DNA of 30,817 bases from a virus. The notes beneath the pieces were generated by a model that was not told the origin of the DNA, did no database searches, and saw nothing but the letters and a program-made list of their open reading frames with translations. Location of the stretch: positions 1 to 30,817 of the IMG/VR virus record IMGVR_UViG_3300035698_003352; one strand, written 5' to 3'. Below are positions 484-30,817 of the stretch, piece after piece. A program made the translations under genes and the position numbers. Numbering within the stretch: the first letter of the stretch is position 1; each line of letters opens with the position of its first letter.

Positions 484-2021
484 TGCCCTGGCGGGGTCCG
501 GACGCCGAGGGCGAACTGCCGTCGCTTGGGTGGCAGCTTCTCGACTGGCTCGAGCAGTTGCCGTCGCCGAGGGATCCAAGTAAGCCGCTGAGGTTCACCG
601 ATGAGCAAGCGTTGCAGCTCGTCCAGTGGTTCACGATCGACCCGCAACGGGGCAAGCTCGTTCACCGTCGCGGTTACTCTCGCCGGTCGAAGGGCTGGGG
701 CAAGTCTCCGGTTGAGGCGGCAAAGGTCATCGCCGAATTGGCGGGCCCGGTTCGGTTCGCCGGTTGGGACTCTGACGGTAACCCGGTGGGCAGGCCGTGG
801 GGTGGACCGGGCGACCCGCAACCGTGGGTGCAGGTCGGCGCAGTCTCCGAAGATCAGACGGATAACACGTGGTCTGTCGTGTACTACCTGCTCACCGAGA
901 ACGATGGTGCAGCAGCCGCCGACCTGGGTATCGACGCCGGTCTGACGCGCTGCTTCCTCCGCAACCGACCGGGCGCGAAACTTGAGCCGGTCACAGCGTC
1001 GGCGGGTTCACGTGAGGGGCAGCCGATCACGTACGCGTGTCTCGACGAAACCCACCTGTGGACTCCGAGGAATGGCGGCGTCAAACTGGCCCGCACATTG
1101 CGCCGCAACGTGGCGAAGATGAACGGCAGATCGTACGAGACGACGAACTCCTTCGTTCGTGGAGAGCAATCGGTAGCTGAGGGCTCCCATAAGGCCGTCC
1201 AACAAGGTGCTGCCGGCGTGTTCTCCGACGAGGTCGAAGCGCCAATCGCTATTGACGGTGACGGCATCGGGCCAGAATCGCCGGACGAACACCTGCGCCG
1301 TGCGCTGAAAGTTGCGTACGGTGATTCGTGGTGGGCCGACATCGACCGCCTCGTCTCCGACATTCGCGACCCTGATTCGGACTGGGAAGATTCCTGCCGC
1401 TTCTTCTTCAACTGGAATCGCGATGCTGTCGAGGTCGTCCCGGACGGCCCGATCCCCCTGGCGGACTGGGACTTCATAATCGACGGCGGGTCGACCGTTG
1501 TGGCGGAGACGGCTGTCGTGGCCGTGGACAAGGATTCAGAGTGGTATCAGGCGTCCGTAGTCGGTGAGCGTCCTGACGGGTTGCATCACGGCGGCACATT
1601 GGTGGCAAACATGAACTTGACAGCGTTTCTGGCGGGACTGTCGGAGGCGTGCGCGGCTCTCGGTGTGTCGACGGTGGCGGTCCCGAAGGGGTCGCCGGCT
1701 GAGGCCATGACGGGCGATCTGTCGGGTGTCGGATTGACCCCGTACGTGATGCCGCAACACGAGCAGGCGATGGCGTTCGAGAGGTTCGTCAACGCCACGA
1801 AAGGCGCGGCACCGATGCTGCGCCACCTCGGCGAGCCGAAGGTCCGTAAGGCGATCGAGCAGGCTGCCACAAAGCCGTGGGGCGACGGCGGCGAGACGTG
1901 GTCGCGCCGGACAACGAAGGGCGACATATCGCCGCTGACAGCATTGACGATGGCGTACGGACGACTCGGTGTTGACGTTGATGAGGCGGTTTTCGTTTCG
2001 TCTGTTATTGGAGGTTCTTGA
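483..2021 (+). CDS. Terminase large subunit
   Basis: 512 residues, the usual size for an actinophage TerL. This is the packaging motor: an N-terminal ATPase pumps DNA into the prohead and a C-terminal nuclease cuts it. A Walker A-like stretch is seen near residues 67-75 (RRSKGWGKS, a K-S variant of the P-loop). A Walker B motif is at 182-190 (ITYACLDET, acidic pair D188/E189). The RNase H-like nuclease domain begins near residue 328 with FIIDGG followed by alternating hydrophobics. The start overlaps the stop of the small subunit by one base, which suggests translational coupling. The next gene follows after one base. Confidence 0.93.
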   Translation: MPWRGPDAEGELPSLGWQLLDWLEQLPSPRDPSKPLRFTDEQALQLVQWFTIDPQRGKLVHRRGYSRRSKGWGKSPVEAAKVIAELAGPVRFAGWDSDGNPVGRPWGGPGDPQPWVQVGAVSEDQTDNTWSVVYYLLTENDGAAAADLGIDAGLTRCFLRNRPGAKLEPVTASAGSREGQPITYACLDETHLWTPRNGGVKLARTLRRNVAKMNGRSYETTNSFVRGEQSVAEGSHKAVQQGAAGVFSDEVEAPIAIDGDGIGPESPDEHLRRALKVAYGDSWWADIDRLVSDIRDPDSDWEDSCRFFFNWNRDAVEVVPDGPIPLADWDFIIDGGSTVVAETAVVAVDKDSEWYQASVVGERPDGLHHGGTLVANMNLTAFLAGLSEACAALGVSTVAVPKGSPAEAMTGDLSGVGLTPYVMPQHEQAMAFERFVNATKGAAPMLRHLGEPKVRKAIEQAATKPWGDGGETWSRRTTKGDISPLTALTMAYGRLGVDVDEAVFVSSVIGGS

Positions 2022-2238: not shown

Positions 2239-3445
2239 CCGGATCAACGCACGCAAGGACGCAGTGCGAACGGTCGATCCGGTCACGATGGAAGAGTTCG
2301 ACGCGATCCTCGGGTCCAGTACGGGGTACTCGGCGACCACGAAGGCCGGCACGTCGGTCAGCGCGAAGAGGGCTCTTGGTCTGTCGGCGTGGTATTCAGG
2401 CGTCCGCTACCTGTCCGAGGTGATGGCCGGCCTGCCTGTCCACCGATACCGAGACACCCCTACCGGACGAAAGCGGGTCGCGTCGCCTCCGTGGATGAAA
2501 CGCCCAGACGTTGAGCGCCCCTGGTATTCGCTGATCGAGCTGATCATGATGGGCCTGCTCCACCAGGGCAACGGCCACGCATTCAAGTTGCGCGAGGCGT
2601 CAACCGGTCAAGTCGTCGGCTTGCGCGGTGTGCAGTCCGAGCGCGTCACGGGCGGCACGGCCCCGGATGGTACGAAACGGTTTGCGATCGATCGCAACGA
2701 GAATCTGTTCACGACTCGTGAGATTCTGCACGTCCCTGGCTTGTCGTACAACGGGCAGTACGGGCTCAACCCGATCCAGTATTCTGCCGACGTCCTCGGC
2801 GCTGCCGCAGCGACCGACGATTACGCATCAAGGTTCTTCTCGAACAGCACGAACCTCGGCGGCGTGATTTCTGTCGAACACGCCATGTCTGAACCGCAGG
2901 CAGCGGCGTTGAAGGCCGAGTGGGAAGCGTTCCACAAGGGCATTCTCAACTCGCACCGCACTGGCGTTCTGTCCAAGGGCGCCCGTTACGACCGGGTGAC
3001 CCTCGACGCAGCATCGAGCCAGCTGCTCGAATCACGGTCGTACGGTGTACTTGAGGTTGCGCGCCTACTCCGTCTGCCTCCTCACAAGTTGTACGAGCTG
3101 ACCAATGCGACGTTCTCGAACATCGAACACCAGTCGATTGAAGCCATCACGGACGGTATTCAGCCGTGGTGTGAGCGAATCGAGTCGTGCATCAACTACG
3201 ACCCCGACCTGACACCCGAGGGCACGTTCATCAAGTTCGAGCTAGAGGGCCGTCTCCGTGGTGACACGGCGTCGAGGTACCAGTCTTACACGGCCGCAAT
3301 CGGTGGCCCGTGGATGGCACCGAACGAGGCCCGCATTCTCGAAGATCGCCCGCCGATCCCTGGCGGTGACGTGGTGCTGTCGCCGCTGAACATGCAGCCT
3401 GTCGGCGCAGAACGTCCCGCTACTACCGGAGGCCAACCATCATGA
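2228..3445 (+). CDS. Portal protein, HK97 family
   Basis: 405 residues from ATG 2228; a TTG one codon upstream (2225) is a less likely start. AGAGG lies just ahead of the ATG. Portal subunits form the dodecameric ring through which DNA enters the head. HK97-type features are the early SAWYSGVRYLSEVMAGLPV block (about residues 55-73), the FFSNSTNLGGVI segment, and LRLPPHKLYE followed by ATFSNIEHQS (about 280-303), which is diagnostic of the phage portal family PF04860. The last four bases (ATGA) are shared with the protease gene. Confidence 0.95.
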   Translation: MLADRINARKDAVRTVDPVTMEEFDAILGSSTGYSATTKAGTSVSAKRALGLSAWYSGVRYLSEVMAGLPVHRYRDTPTGRKRVASPPWMKRPDVERPWYSLIELIMMGLLHQGNGHAFKLREASTGQVVGLRGVQSERVTGGTAPDGTKRFAIDRNENLFTTREILHVPGLSYNGQYGLNPIQYSADVLGAAAATDDYASRFFSNSTNLGGVISVEHAMSEPQAAALKAEWEAFHKGILNSHRTGVLSKGARYDRVTLDAASSQLLESRSYGVLEVARLLRLPPHKLYELTNATFSNIEHQSIEAITDGIQPWCERIESCINYDPDLTPEGTFIKFELEGRLRGDTASRYQSYTAAIGGPWMAPNEARILEDRPPIPGGDVVLSPLNMQPVGAERPATTGGQPS

Positions 3446-19189: not shown

Positions 19190-19296
19190 TGATGGTGAAA
19201 TATCTAATTCTCTCCGGTGTCGGTATCATTGTCGGCTTCGTTGCCGCTGTCGTGGCCGGGTCGTGGGAAGAGTGGCGACACATTCACGGCGAGTGA
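19189..19296 (+). CDS. 35-residue membrane peptide
   Basis: Starts at the TGATG that ends the phosphoesterase gene (one-base overlap). It encodes MMVKYLILSGVGIIVG, then a hydrophobic span (FVAAVVAG) and a charged end (SWEEWRHIHGE), that is, one membrane span with a short cytoplasmic or external tail. Small size, but the stop-start coupling and coherent hydrophobic pattern support it. It could be an additional lysis helper or an anchor. This is the last gene before the convergent terminator. Confidence 0.55.
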   Translation: MMVKYLILSGVGIIVGFVAAVVAGSWEEWRHIHGE

Positions 19297-19542
19297 ACGA
19301 GATCGAGCAAGCCGGGGTCTCCCCAGGTGCGGCCAAGGTCGTTGCTCCGGCGCACGTCACTGACGTGTCCTTTCCGCTGCGGCGACGTTGTGCGGCTGCC
19401 TACTCGGGCGGGGTGAGAGTAACGCACTGGGCAGACGTGCCCGGTGCGCTCACCTCTACACATTCCCCGACAAGGGGACCGGACGTCCATCGACACGCTT
19501 CCCCCTGGCGTGTTGGTGGGCGTCCTTTGTCGCGTCTGCGGG
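19297..19542. other. Non-coding convergent junction
   Basis: No gene is supported here. The rightward late operon ends at 19296 and the leftward integrase operon ends at 19543. The region holds an 11-bp stem (19423-19448) and a weaker 5-bp stem (TCCCC/GGGGA, 19464-19478). Apart from these I see nothing. Confidence 0.7.
19423..19448. terminator. Strong hairpin, candidate bidirectional terminator
   Basis: CGCACTGGGCA (19423-19433) pairs with TGCCCGGTGCG (19438-19448) over 11 bp with one G-U pair and a GACG loop. There is no clear T run on either side. Actinobacterial terminators often lack a U tract, and the position, between convergent operons, suggests it ends transcription from both strands. 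Confidence 0.6.
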
Positions 19543-19758: not shown

Positions 19759-19786
19759 CGGTGGTTCCTTGCGTCTCGGTGCTCAT
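19751..19786 (-). CDS. 11-residue reading frame between integrase and the last gene
   Basis: ATGA overlap with the integrase stop (19783-19786), an AAGGAG upstream on the leftward strand (about 19792-19797), and an 8-base overlap with the 71-residue gene. It encodes MSTETQGTTDV. It may be a coupling leader that keeps ribosomes moving to the next start, or chance. Low confidence as a functional product. Confidence 0.3.
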   Translation of the reverse strand: MSTETQGTTDV

Positions 19787-20907
19787 GTCGTTTCTCCTTG
19801 TGGTGGTTGGATTCGGAACTGGTGATCGATGGCGGCAGCGACACGGCGGCGCCCCTCATCATTCGAGTGGGCGTACAAATCGAGCGTCGTCGAGACTTGC
19901 GCGTGGCCGAGCTGATCGGCGACCGACGCTGGCGGCGCACCCGCATCAAGGGCCGTCGTCGCGTACCAGTGGCGCAGAGAGTGCAGCCCGATGTGGTCGA
20001 GGCCGTGCAGCGCCCGCAACCTCGTCCACGCCGTGCCCAGCGATGATGGCGTGCGCGGCACACCGCCGTCGACGTCGGCCCGCCAGTTCGGGAACACCCA
20101 CGGCGACGCCCCGACCGTGCCGAGATGCTCACGCTGACGCTCAAGGATCTCCACCGCCCCCGAGTCGAGCTGTACTTCACGGCTGCGCTTGCCCTTCGTC
20201 TCCTTGACGGTCAGAGGGCGACCGGTCGGCTTCACGATCGAGTGACGCACGGTGATCTCGTCGCCTCGCCAGTCCTCCCACCGCAGCCCGCACACCTCAC
20301 CGCGCCGCAGACCGGTGTGCGCGAGAAGTTCGACCGCTCGCCCCCACTCACCCCGAGCGCGCAACAGGTCGACGGCGCGCCGCACCTCTTCGTTGGTTGG
20401 GATGACGATCTCTTGCTGCCGGTGCTCTGGGCGTTGGGCTTTGGCTGTGGCTACGGTCGGGAGCTCGCGGAACTTGTGACCGAAGGTGAGGATCGCACGG
20501 AGCACAGCCTCGGCGTGACGGATCGATGCGGGCGACATCCCGCCGTCCTGGAGCGCGTTGTACCACGCCTGAACGTCTCGGCCGGTGAGAGCGGACGCGC
20601 GACTGGTGCCGAAGCGGTCGGCGATGCGCTTCGCCCACATGCTGTAACCGACGAGTGTGGTCGGGCTTCGTCCCTGCCGCTCCTTGACCTGCAGCCAGTC
20701 GTCGACAAGCTCGGCGATGCTGCCACGTGCGAGCGCGCCGGCTTCGTACGCCTCACGGAGCTCCACCTCGATCCTGGGCATCTTGCGTTCTGCTGCGCGT
20801 CGACCGTTGGCCGTGAACCGTCGTGACAGTTGGCGTCGGCTGTGACCGGATCCGACCCACACCCACGCCCGCCATCGACCGGCGCCGAGGTCTTTAAGGC
20901 TACTCAC
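19783..20907 (-). CDS. int: Tyrosine integrase
   Basis: 374 residues, leftward, GTG start in a GTGA overlap with the gene before it. It joins phage attP to the host attB. An N-terminal arm-binding region (about 1-60) and a core-binding SAM-like domain (about 64-150) precede the catalytic domain (about 170-365). Catalytic residues are visible: R201 (HTGLRRGEV), a Lys in the beta hairpin (near K235-K240), H309-x-x-R312 (HSLRHWYAT), H335 (LGHAQ) and the nucleophile Y345 (LDLYAH). Full length. The attachment site is about 590 bases upstream, and the operon promoter lies beyond it. Confidence 0.95.
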   Translation of the reverse strand: MSSLKDLGAGRWRAWVWVGSGHSRRQLSRRFTANGRRAAERKMPRIEVELREAYEAGALARGSIAELVDDWLQVKERQGRSPTTLVGYSMWAKRIADRFGTSRASALTGRDVQAWYNALQDGGMSPASIRHAEAVLRAILTFGHKFRELPTVATAKAQRPEHRQQEIVIPTNEEVRRAVDLLRARGEWGRAVELLAHTGLRRGEVCGLRWEDWRGDEITVRHSIVKPTGRPLTVKETKGKRSREVQLDSGAVEILERQREHLGTVGASPWVFPNWRADVDGGVPRTPSSLGTAWTRLRALHGLDHIGLHSLRHWYATTALDAGAPPASVADQLGHAQVSTTLDLYAHSNDEGRRRVAAAIDHQFRIQPPQGETT

Positions 20908-21131
20908 GTGACCGGCGTGACCGAGTAGACGACTCCGCCCGGGGTTGGCTCTGCGGCGGCACCGTTCGGATAGGTACGCAGCCAGTCTTTGACGAGCCGC
21001 AGTCCTTCAATCTTGCCGCCGTAGCGGGCCACATTGGAAGGGTGGCGAGTCTCCTTCTGTGCGAACTCAAGGTAGATAATGCCTCGGTCGATTCGGTCGT
21101 TGATGTCGGCCATGATCTCGTCGTGCTTCAT
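20904..21131 (-). CDS. Small protein upstream of integrase
   Basis: 75 residues, leftward, ATGA overlap with the gene before and GTGA overlap with int. It is helical and charged (KHDEIMADINDRIDRGIIYL, KIEGLRLVKDWLRTYP) with a flexible Pro/Gly-rich end. Not a recognisable excisionase: no winged-HTH pattern is seen. Its place directly before int suggests a role in integration or its control, but that is inference. Confidence 0.6.
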   Translation of the reverse strand: MKHDEIMADINDRIDRGIIYLEFAQKETRHPSNVARYGGKIEGLRLVKDWLRTYPNGAAAEPTPGGVVYSVTPVT

Positions 21132-21403: not shown

Positions 21404-21477
21404 GTCGTTGTCCTCCTGTAGTTTGGTAAATCTGATGTCGAATTGTGACCGCAATTGTGACCACCCCGGTGGTGATC

Positions 21478-21496
21478 GCAGTCTAAGCTAGACTGC
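21478..21496. repeat. Perfect 8-bp inverted repeat next to the tRNA-like core
   Basis: GCAGTCTA (21478-21485) and TAGACTGC (21489-21496) are perfect inverted copies with AGC between them. It touches the first bases of the tRNA-like core. It may be a binding site for the integrase or an excisionase, or part of a tRNA promoter. Not a terminator: short and no T run. Confidence 0.55.
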
Positions 21497-21537
21497 CTTT
21501 GTAGCTCAGTGGATAGAGCATCGGTTTCCTAAACCGA
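21495..21537 (+). tRNA. tRNA-Arg(CCU) 5' part (attP core, incomplete)
   Basis: The first 43 bases fold as a tRNA: acceptor 5' strand GCCTTTG, TA, D stem GCTC/GAGC with loop AGTGGATA, and anticodon stem TCGGT/ACCGA with loop TTCCTAA, anticodon CCT. From 21538 the sequence leaves the tRNA pattern: no T stem or loop, and no partner for the acceptor strand. So this is only the 5' part, as expected for an attachment site in a tRNA gene. On integration the phage would supply the 5' part and the host the 3' part of one restored gene. Confidence 0.75.
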
Positions 21538-21580
21538 TCAGAGACAAGGTTAAACGTGTCCGAATGATTCCGCAAGACCC

Positions 21581-21626
21581 CTGACCAGGGACTTTGTCGA
21601 AGGGGTTACGGGCTACCCCTGGTCAG
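21581..21626. repeat. 10-bp inverted repeat in the right attP arm
   Basis: CTGACCAGGG (21581-21590) and CCCTGGTCAG (21617-21626) are perfect inverted copies separated by 26 bases. No T run follows on either strand, so a protein-binding site, or a DNA structure, within the right arm is likelier than a terminator. Confidence 0.5.
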
Positions 21627-21765
21627 AGGGCTCCGAATTGTGACCGTGTGGTGTGACCACCCCTCGGCGGGCTGGATCTGCCCATTCCTTGATCGGGAAC
21701 GGCGGCAGCGTGGGGAACAGGTCTCCCATGATCCGGTCGAACTCTTCGGGCGTTGGTTCGCTCAC
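21613..21765 (-). CDS. Small protein at the attP border
   Basis: 50 residues, leftward, GTG start in a GTGA overlap with the preceding stop. It opens SEPTPEEFDRIMGDLFPTLP and is Pro-rich. Its last third overlaps the right-arm repeats of attP, so the real end may have been changed by the att site, and integration would leave this gene at the prophage edge. Coupling supports the start; the C-terminal part is doubtful. Confidence 0.45.
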   Translation of the reverse strand: MSEPTPEEFDRIMGDLFPTLPPFPIKEWADPARRGVVTPHGHNSEPSDQG

Positions 21766-30218: not shown

Positions 30219-30817
30219 TGGCTCGTATTCGTACCGTCAAGCCCGAACTATGGACCGATGAGGATTTCATCGATCTAACCCTTGAGTCACGCCTAGTGTT
30301 CATCGCCTCACTCAACTTCGCTGATGACTGCGGGGTTCTCGCCGACAAGCCCCGAACCCTCACCATCCGAGCGATGCCGACCGACGACGTCGATGCCGAC
30401 GCCATTGTCGACGAATTGGTGAACGCTCGGTTCTACGTCCGTCACACGGCACCGAATGGCGACAGAGTGCTCGTGATCAGGACTTTTGCGTCTCACCAGA
30501 AGATCGACAAGCGCTCCAACGGACGATGGGGAGACCCTGCCGACTGGCACGAATCCCCACCAATCCCGCCTGATCCCCACCAATCCCCACGAGTCCCCAC
30601 TACGGAAGGGAAGGGAAGGGAAGGGAAGGGAAGGGAAAAGACTACGTCCGTCAGTCCAGAGACATTCTCAAGTAGCGAGAACGACAAGCAAGCGGACGGA
30701 CCGACCGAAACCAAAGACGAACGATTCGAGCTCACATGCTCACTCATCGTCGACAACATCATCGCCAAGAAGCCAGGCAAGAAACGCGACGAGATCGGCA
30801 AAGCCGGATACCGGCGA
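30218..30817 (+). CDS. Replication initiator, truncated by the window end
   Basis: 200 codons visible, GTG start one base into the previous stop (TAGTG). The N-terminus (ARIRTVKPELWTDEDFIDLT, LESRLVFIASLNFADDCGVL, RAMPTDDVDADAIVDELVN) is the standard winged-HTH start of phage replication organiser/DnaD-like initiator proteins. Residues about 112-145 are encoded by the repeat tract at 30553-30635 (PPIPPDPHQSPRVPT, then EGKGREGKGREK). The protein continues past the right edge. By analogy with lambda O, the origin may lie inside this gene. Confidence 0.8.
   Translation, partial: MARIRTVKPELWTDEDFIDLTLESRLVFIASLNFADDCGVLADKPRTLTIRAMPTDDVDADAIVDELVNARFYVRHTAPNGDRVLVIRTFASHQKIDKRSNGRWGDPADWHESPPIPPDPHQSPRVPTTEGKGREGKGREKTTSVSPETFSSSENDKQADGPTETKDERFELTCSLIVDNIIAKKPGKKRDEIGKAGYRR
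30554..30600 (+). repeat. Five 10-bp phased units (TCCCCAC-type)
   Basis: TCCCCAC at 30554, 30574, 30584 and 30594, with a variant TCCCGCC at 30564, gives a 10-bp period, about one helical turn. The period is not a multiple of three, so each unit is read in a different frame and the repeat is not driven by the protein sequence. An iteron-type binding array is likely. Confidence 0.7.
30606..30635 (+). repeat. Six tandem AAGGG pentamers, G-quadruplex-prone
   Basis: AAGGG repeats six times, giving six GGG runs separated by AA, a clear four-tract G-quadruplex pattern on the + strand. A gain or loss of one pentamer would shift the initiator reading frame, as five is not a multiple of three. It follows the 10-bp units by five bases, so the pair forms one C-rich/G-rich tract. 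Confidence 0.75.

Follow-up and report, generated by a model that had tools for sequence, protein, structure and literature searches.

A putative phage attachment site carrying the 5' half of a tRNA-Arg(CCU) gene, with counterparts in a small clade of tyrosine integrases

The 30,817-nt stretch of viral DNA analysed here, an IMG/VR virus record (hereafter the window), contains, at positions 21439-21663, what is very probably the attP of a temperate actinobacterial phage, whose integrase would recombine it with a host tRNA-Arg(CCU) gene, with strand exchange in the anticodon loop, and rebuild the tRNA. An earlier examination of the letters alone (hereafter the sequence-only reading) had proposed that this attP carries the 5' part of tRNA-Arg(CCU), with limits (21441-21658) that proved correct to within a few bases. 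The proposal held: an integrase gene adjoins the site, arm-type repeats flank it, and related phages share the same layout with a different tRNA, tRNA-Lys(UUU) (Table 1).

A cmscan search of the whole window against all families yielded a match to RF00005 (21495-21546, + strand; 35.6 bits, for a gathering score of 29; E 4e-4), whose alignment covers the acceptor 5' strand, the D arm and the anticodon arm and then skips ~20 model positions, the T arm being missing. The half, which starts with GCCTTTGTAGCTCAGTGGATAGAGCATCGGTTTCCTAAACCGA, is intact over its 43 nt and can be read directly as GCCTTTG-TA-GCTC-AGTGGATA-GAGC-A-TCGGT-TTCCTAA-ACCGA, with T8, A14, G18G19, A20, A21, T33 and A37 all kept. 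We built two covariance models from the tRNAs of other phages, excluding Arg(CCU): R1 for 5' halves (17 tRNAs) and R2 for 3' halves (28 tRNAs). In a search of 114 kb, the R1 match coincided with 21495-21537 from the first base to the last (32.8 bits, E 8e-5), whereas R2 gave no hit in the window at E≤1. Downstream there was neither the T arm nor the acceptor 3' strand that a canonical 3'-half attP carries, so that the site contains a 5' half without a 3' half, as expected for an attP of the 5' type. These analyses agree with the sequence-only reading, according to which the tRNA pattern stops after an anticodon arm with CCT. A complete tRNA, which that reading had named as evidence against itself, was not detected by ARAGORN in the window, which may be less than the whole genome.

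Table 1 Coordinates of the att region, its neighbours and the corresponding features of related loci.
Feature	Position	Strand	Basis
Tyrosine integrase, 374 aa, GTG start	19783-20907	-	PF00589 E 3.9e-23; phrog_1 E 1e-62
75-aa ORF, stop overlapping the integrase start	20904-21131	-	ORF comparison with relatives
P-side (integrase-side) arm-type pair (putative), TTGTGACC x2, spacing 12	21439-21467	+	Repeat analysis
Leader, presumptive future 5' flank of the rebuilt tRNA	21468-21494	+	Sequence reading
tRNA-Arg(CCU) 5' half	21495-21537	+	cmscan and 5'-half covariance model
Acceptor 5' strand	21495-21501		
D arm	21504-21519		
Anticodon arm	21521-21537		
Anticodon CCT	21528-21530		
Presumed core, inverted repeat ATCGGTTT-CCT-AAACCGAT (anticodon stem-loop)	21520-21538	.	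Sequence reading
P'-side arm-type pair (putative), TGTGACC x2, spacing 13, order as in the P-side pair	21634-21663	+	Repeat analysis
tRNA-Lys(UUU) 5' half, upstream of the integrase gene	L002 876-917		R1 model
tRNA-Lys(UUU) 5' half, upstream of the integrase gene	L016 5248-5289		R1 model
Homologue of the structured element	L003 640-915	-	
Homologue of the structured element	L016 8245-8490	-	
Homologue of the structured element	L002 about 2800-3040	-	By eye

An inverted repeat forming an anticodon stem-loop, such as that at the end of the half, is the usual type of core for integrases that cut in the anticodon loop (PMC8371274). By analogy with these enzymes, the 7-nt loop (21526-21532) is expected to be the overlap region for strand exchange, with cleavage probably occurring at the loop borders. 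Judged from its sequence, the region appears to combine the general traits of the tRNA attP sites of tyrosine integrases, namely a nearby integrase gene, a tRNA segment ending at an anticodon-stem core, and flanking arm-type repeats.

The sequence-only reading had also reported two TGTGACC repeats on each side of the half, and we located the four copies at 21444-21450, 21456-21462, 21639-21645 and 21652-21658. The 7-mer alone is not rare (8 occurrences in the window versus about 6 expected). The flanks also share the exact repeats CGAATTGTGACCG and TGTGACCACCCC, in the same order and at offsets of 195 and 196 bp, and 5000 first-order Markov randomizations of the region never produced two exact 12-mer repeats in register. 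The arrangement of the repeats, unlike the 7-mer count, is not due to chance, and the TGTGACC pairs are putative arm-type sites for the integrase. No DNA-level relative of the att region was found in the phage collection. The P' side also contains an imperfect inverted repeat (CCCCTGACCAGGG / CCCTGGTCAGAGGG, 21575-21632), located past the core and ahead of the right arm pair, that could be an excisionase site or a hairpin.

Instead of an attP, the region might be an attL or attR junction derived from an integrated prophage: we are dealing with a metagenomic contig, and phage DNA next to a host 5' half would look similar on one side. Such a junction would have host DNA on one side, whereas here each side has an arm pair and phage genes, with terminase, portal, head and tail genes and the integrase gene on the left and genes for WhiB, RecT and a PDDEXK nuclease on the right; we consider this reading highly improbable. 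The presence of WhiB, together with a terminase whose matches are nearly all from actinophages, points to an actinobacterial host. The 75-aa ORF preceding the integrase gene had no PHROG match and no family match. The relatives have an ORF at the equivalent place (L016 5408-5923, + strand) with a similar PGGV-Y-V-P ending, and the C-termini are alike in both phage groups (TPGGVVYSVTP and VPGGVAYPVKP) while the remainder differs; its product is possibly a regulator or an excisionase.

We searched for relatives of the integrase in 2.9 million viral contigs (IMG/VR) and found few close ones, 46-53% identical to it: L002, the group L016/L017/L018, and L003, whose contig begins inside the integrase gene and so lacks the att region. 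L002 and the L016 group carry the 5' half of a tRNA-Lys(UUU), of the form GCCTCTCTAGCTCAATGGTAGAGCA, at the same place and with the 5' end toward the integrase gene, as in the window. GTGAC-type repeats flank this half on both sides, those on the far side being a tandem pair with a spacing of 12 (CCGTGACATnnnCCGTGACATGG) that is kept between L002 and a further locus, L021, while the surrounding DNA differs. The identity of these two loci is 97-100% over the stretch that begins with the left arm and reaches ~30 nt beyond the half, versus 34-75% in the wider flanks. The 3'-half model had no match in L002, L018 and L021. As the integrases of L002, L016, L017 and L018 are mutually 88-100% identical, we count them as a single independent comparison. 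Two different tRNAs, Arg(CCU) and Lys(UUU), are thus broken at the same point within one integrase clade.

This common break point bears on the possibility that the half has no role in integration and is what remains of a captured tRNA gene, or a decoy derived from one, or gives rise to a half-tRNA transcript. Two facts favour it, the occurrence of tRNA genes in phages and the lack of a 3' part here. Nevertheless, the relatives have a different tRNA half at the same place beside the integrase gene, between arm repeats and with the same break point, and decay would not break two different tRNAs at one point, which makes a remnant hardly credible. The shared break is explained by an attP and not by the decay of tRNA genes.

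As controls, we examined 22 integrase loci of known phages, picked by similarity to the window integrase, and 25 IMG/VR loci selected with the motif LRHWYAT. With the 3'-half model we obtained matches at E<0.1 in 12 of the 22 loci of known phages; in nine of these (IN93, PFR1, Cumys, REQ2, Arianna, a faecal phage, Brujita, Ubuntu and D3) E was below 0.01, and many of the IMG/VR loci were matched as well. This is in line with the literature (PMC10865867, PMC8371274) and with the statement in the sequence-only reading that most tRNA-linked attP sites carry the 3' part of the gene. A bare 5' half was present at none of the 47 control loci, the 5'-half model matching only complete tRNA genes at three of them (L043, L058 and L065). 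Among the loci tested with R1, bare 5' halves were confined to the window and its integrase relatives. Scans of viral contigs with a 24-mer of the Arg half, and with the Lys half outside the clade, likewise recovered complete tRNA genes only. In a tree of 25 integrases, the three associated with 5' halves formed a single clade (support 100/100), and their nearest known neighbours were mostly users of 3' halves (IN93, PFR1, Cumys). One control locus, L065 (contig IMGVR_UViG_3300044608_001275), has a complete tRNA-Lys(UUU) at 723-796 (- strand), a few bases past the stop codon of a tyrosine integrase gene. We considered it as a second kind of 5'-side junction and rejected it, as the tRNA is complete and lies inside a phage contig; its layout looks like that of tRNA-dependent lysogeny.

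In that system, exemplified by the mycobacteriophage Fionnbharth (PMC10865867), attP and attB have only a short core in common; integration destroys the tRNA gene of the host, and the phage makes up for the loss with a complete tRNA of its own. The system is known in actinophages, including some with related tyrosine integrases (in Nebkiss, L043, a tRNA-Leu gene adjoins the integrase gene), and might also be invoked for the window phage. As in Fionnbharth and Gaia (PMC10865867), an actinophage would hit an essential tRNA gene and phage DNA would have to secure the supply of the tRNA. However, in those phages the tRNA is broken and a whole one is brought, whereas the window phage would supply a half. 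Moreover, no complete phage tRNA, of the same isotype or any other, occurs in the window (which may not be the whole genome) or in the available parts of the relatives, and an intact half of 43 nt far exceeds the roughly 10-bp cores of that system. We therefore regard tRNA-dependent lysogeny as very unlikely here, and an attP that restores the host gene as the better explanation.

In actinophages, the common core normally includes the 3' half of the tRNA gene (PMC10865867). Their attP sites in anticodon loops (L5, BPs and the Omega/Boilgate type; the PFR1, REQ2 and Brujita loci) resemble that of the window in having a tyrosine integrase, arm-type repeats, an identity block of ~43 nt that ends at the anticodon loop and a tRNA that is (in the window phage, would be) rebuilt upon integration (3' type, PMC10865867), but they carry the 3' half and leave the host promoter in place, whereas the window attP carries the 5' half. 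The same difference holds for the Thermus phages IN93, Tsatsa and Cumys and the Propionibacterium phage PFR1, whose tRNA-targeting integrases are the nearest known ones in the tree (28-31% identity to that of the window) and use 3' halves, comprising 45 bp of the 3' part of tRNA-Ile in IN93/Tsatsa (PMC11437467). A 5' half is used by the pTN3-like integrases of Thermococcales, whose attB is the 5' half of tRNA-Leu (PMC5495485, PMC8371274); integration there separates the rebuilt tRNA from the promoter it had before, a situation whose like is "seldomly encountered in bacteria" (PMC8371274). The window phage and these elements have in common that the element carries the 5' half and that the rebuilt tRNA loses (in our case, would lose) its original promoter. 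They differ in that the pTN3 system is archaeal and has its attP within the integrase gene, so that this gene is split when the element integrates (suicidal), whereas the window belongs to an actinobacterial phage in which the integrase ORF is whole and separate from attP, with the tRNA half about 590 bp upstream of it. A 5'-end replacement is likewise known for dusA-associated integrases, where the target gene has its 5' end, together with the promoter region upstream, exchanged for sequence of the element (PMC4482086); this target is a protein gene and not, as here, a tRNA gene.

From the geometry formed by the half, the arms, the integrase gene and the layout of the relatives, we infer both the integration and the position of the exchange. 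The two TGTGACC pairs and the anticodon-stem core would serve as binding sites for the integrase, and the strands would be exchanged within the anticodon loop of the host gene. As the phage 5' half extends to the end of the anticodon stem, the junction next to the integrase gene would be a hybrid in which the phage leader and the phage 5' half are joined to the host 3' half as an uninterrupted tRNA gene, and the other end of the prophage would consist of the host promoter and host 5' half followed by phage DNA. Control phages show both layouts, and we therefore gave up the notion that a rebuilt tRNA is invariably found next to the integrase gene.

As the host promoter would go to the other prophage end, the rebuilt tRNA would need a promoter on phage DNA and would be transcribed from the phage sequence upstream; the supply of a promoter by the phage is thus likely by necessity. 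The sequence-only reading had suggested that the phage provides the 5' half and possibly the promoter. R1 and R2 confirmed that the phage carries a 5' half, whereas for the promoter a scan revealed no sigma-70-like consensus site upstream of the half in the window, where a weak -10-like TAAGCT (21484-21489) lies five bases before it. The leaders of L002 and L016 have a TATACA six bases before the tRNA, which in L016 overlaps a promoter-like site in the opposite direction, toward the integrase gene. The scan of the window and this opposite orientation weaken the case for promoter supply, although the corresponding leaders of L002 and L021 are identical at 57 of 58 positions. We did not find attB, attL or attR: a scan of genome contigs with a 33-mer of the half reached only two non-actinobacterial tRNA genes, from Phycisphaeraceae and WOR-3, both complete and having 37 bases in common with the half but departing from it in the acceptor stem and beyond the anticodon stem. 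We rejected these organisms as hosts, since WhiB and the terminase point to actinobacteria.

The principle is known but rare (archaeal pTN3; seldom bacteria), and what is new is its occurrence as a trait of a whole, small integrase clade with two target tRNAs. We tentatively propose, as a scenario with slightly less than an even chance of being right, that a clade of actinobacterial phage integrases switched to tRNA 5' halves (at least Arg-CCU and Lys-UUU), so that in each lysogen a tRNA that is essential, and may be single-copy, is expressed from a phage promoter and has a phage-encoded 5' half. If so, a host tRNA would come under prophage control and lysogeny would depend on the phage promoter working. 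A 5'-half attP would reverse the usual rule, the host losing its own tRNA promoter and relying on phage DNA for a possibly vital tRNA. The stability of the trait in the clade across two tRNAs makes this directly testable, by asking whether the tRNA is made from the prophage and whether the prophage is hard to lose. In practice, attP finders restricted to the 3' ends of tRNA genes will miss 5'-half sites.

Two further elements of the window deserve mention. A strongly structured, apparently non-coding element of ~240 nt (19296-19540, + strand) separates the exonuclease gene from the 3' end of the integrase gene, with a minimum free energy of -135.9 kcal/mol versus -103.5 for shuffled sequences (z -7.6) and a terminator-like hairpin at its end. 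Over three sequences, 14 of its 76 consensus pairs are changed on both sides, indels disrupt reading frames, and blocks of invariant sequence persist despite integrases that are only 46% identical. It had no match in Rfam or in the phage collection and is a candidate new phage ncRNA. Finally, the pentanucleotide GGAAG is perfectly repeated 6.8 times at 30604-30637, adjoining a 10/20-bp tandem array at 30547-30600.
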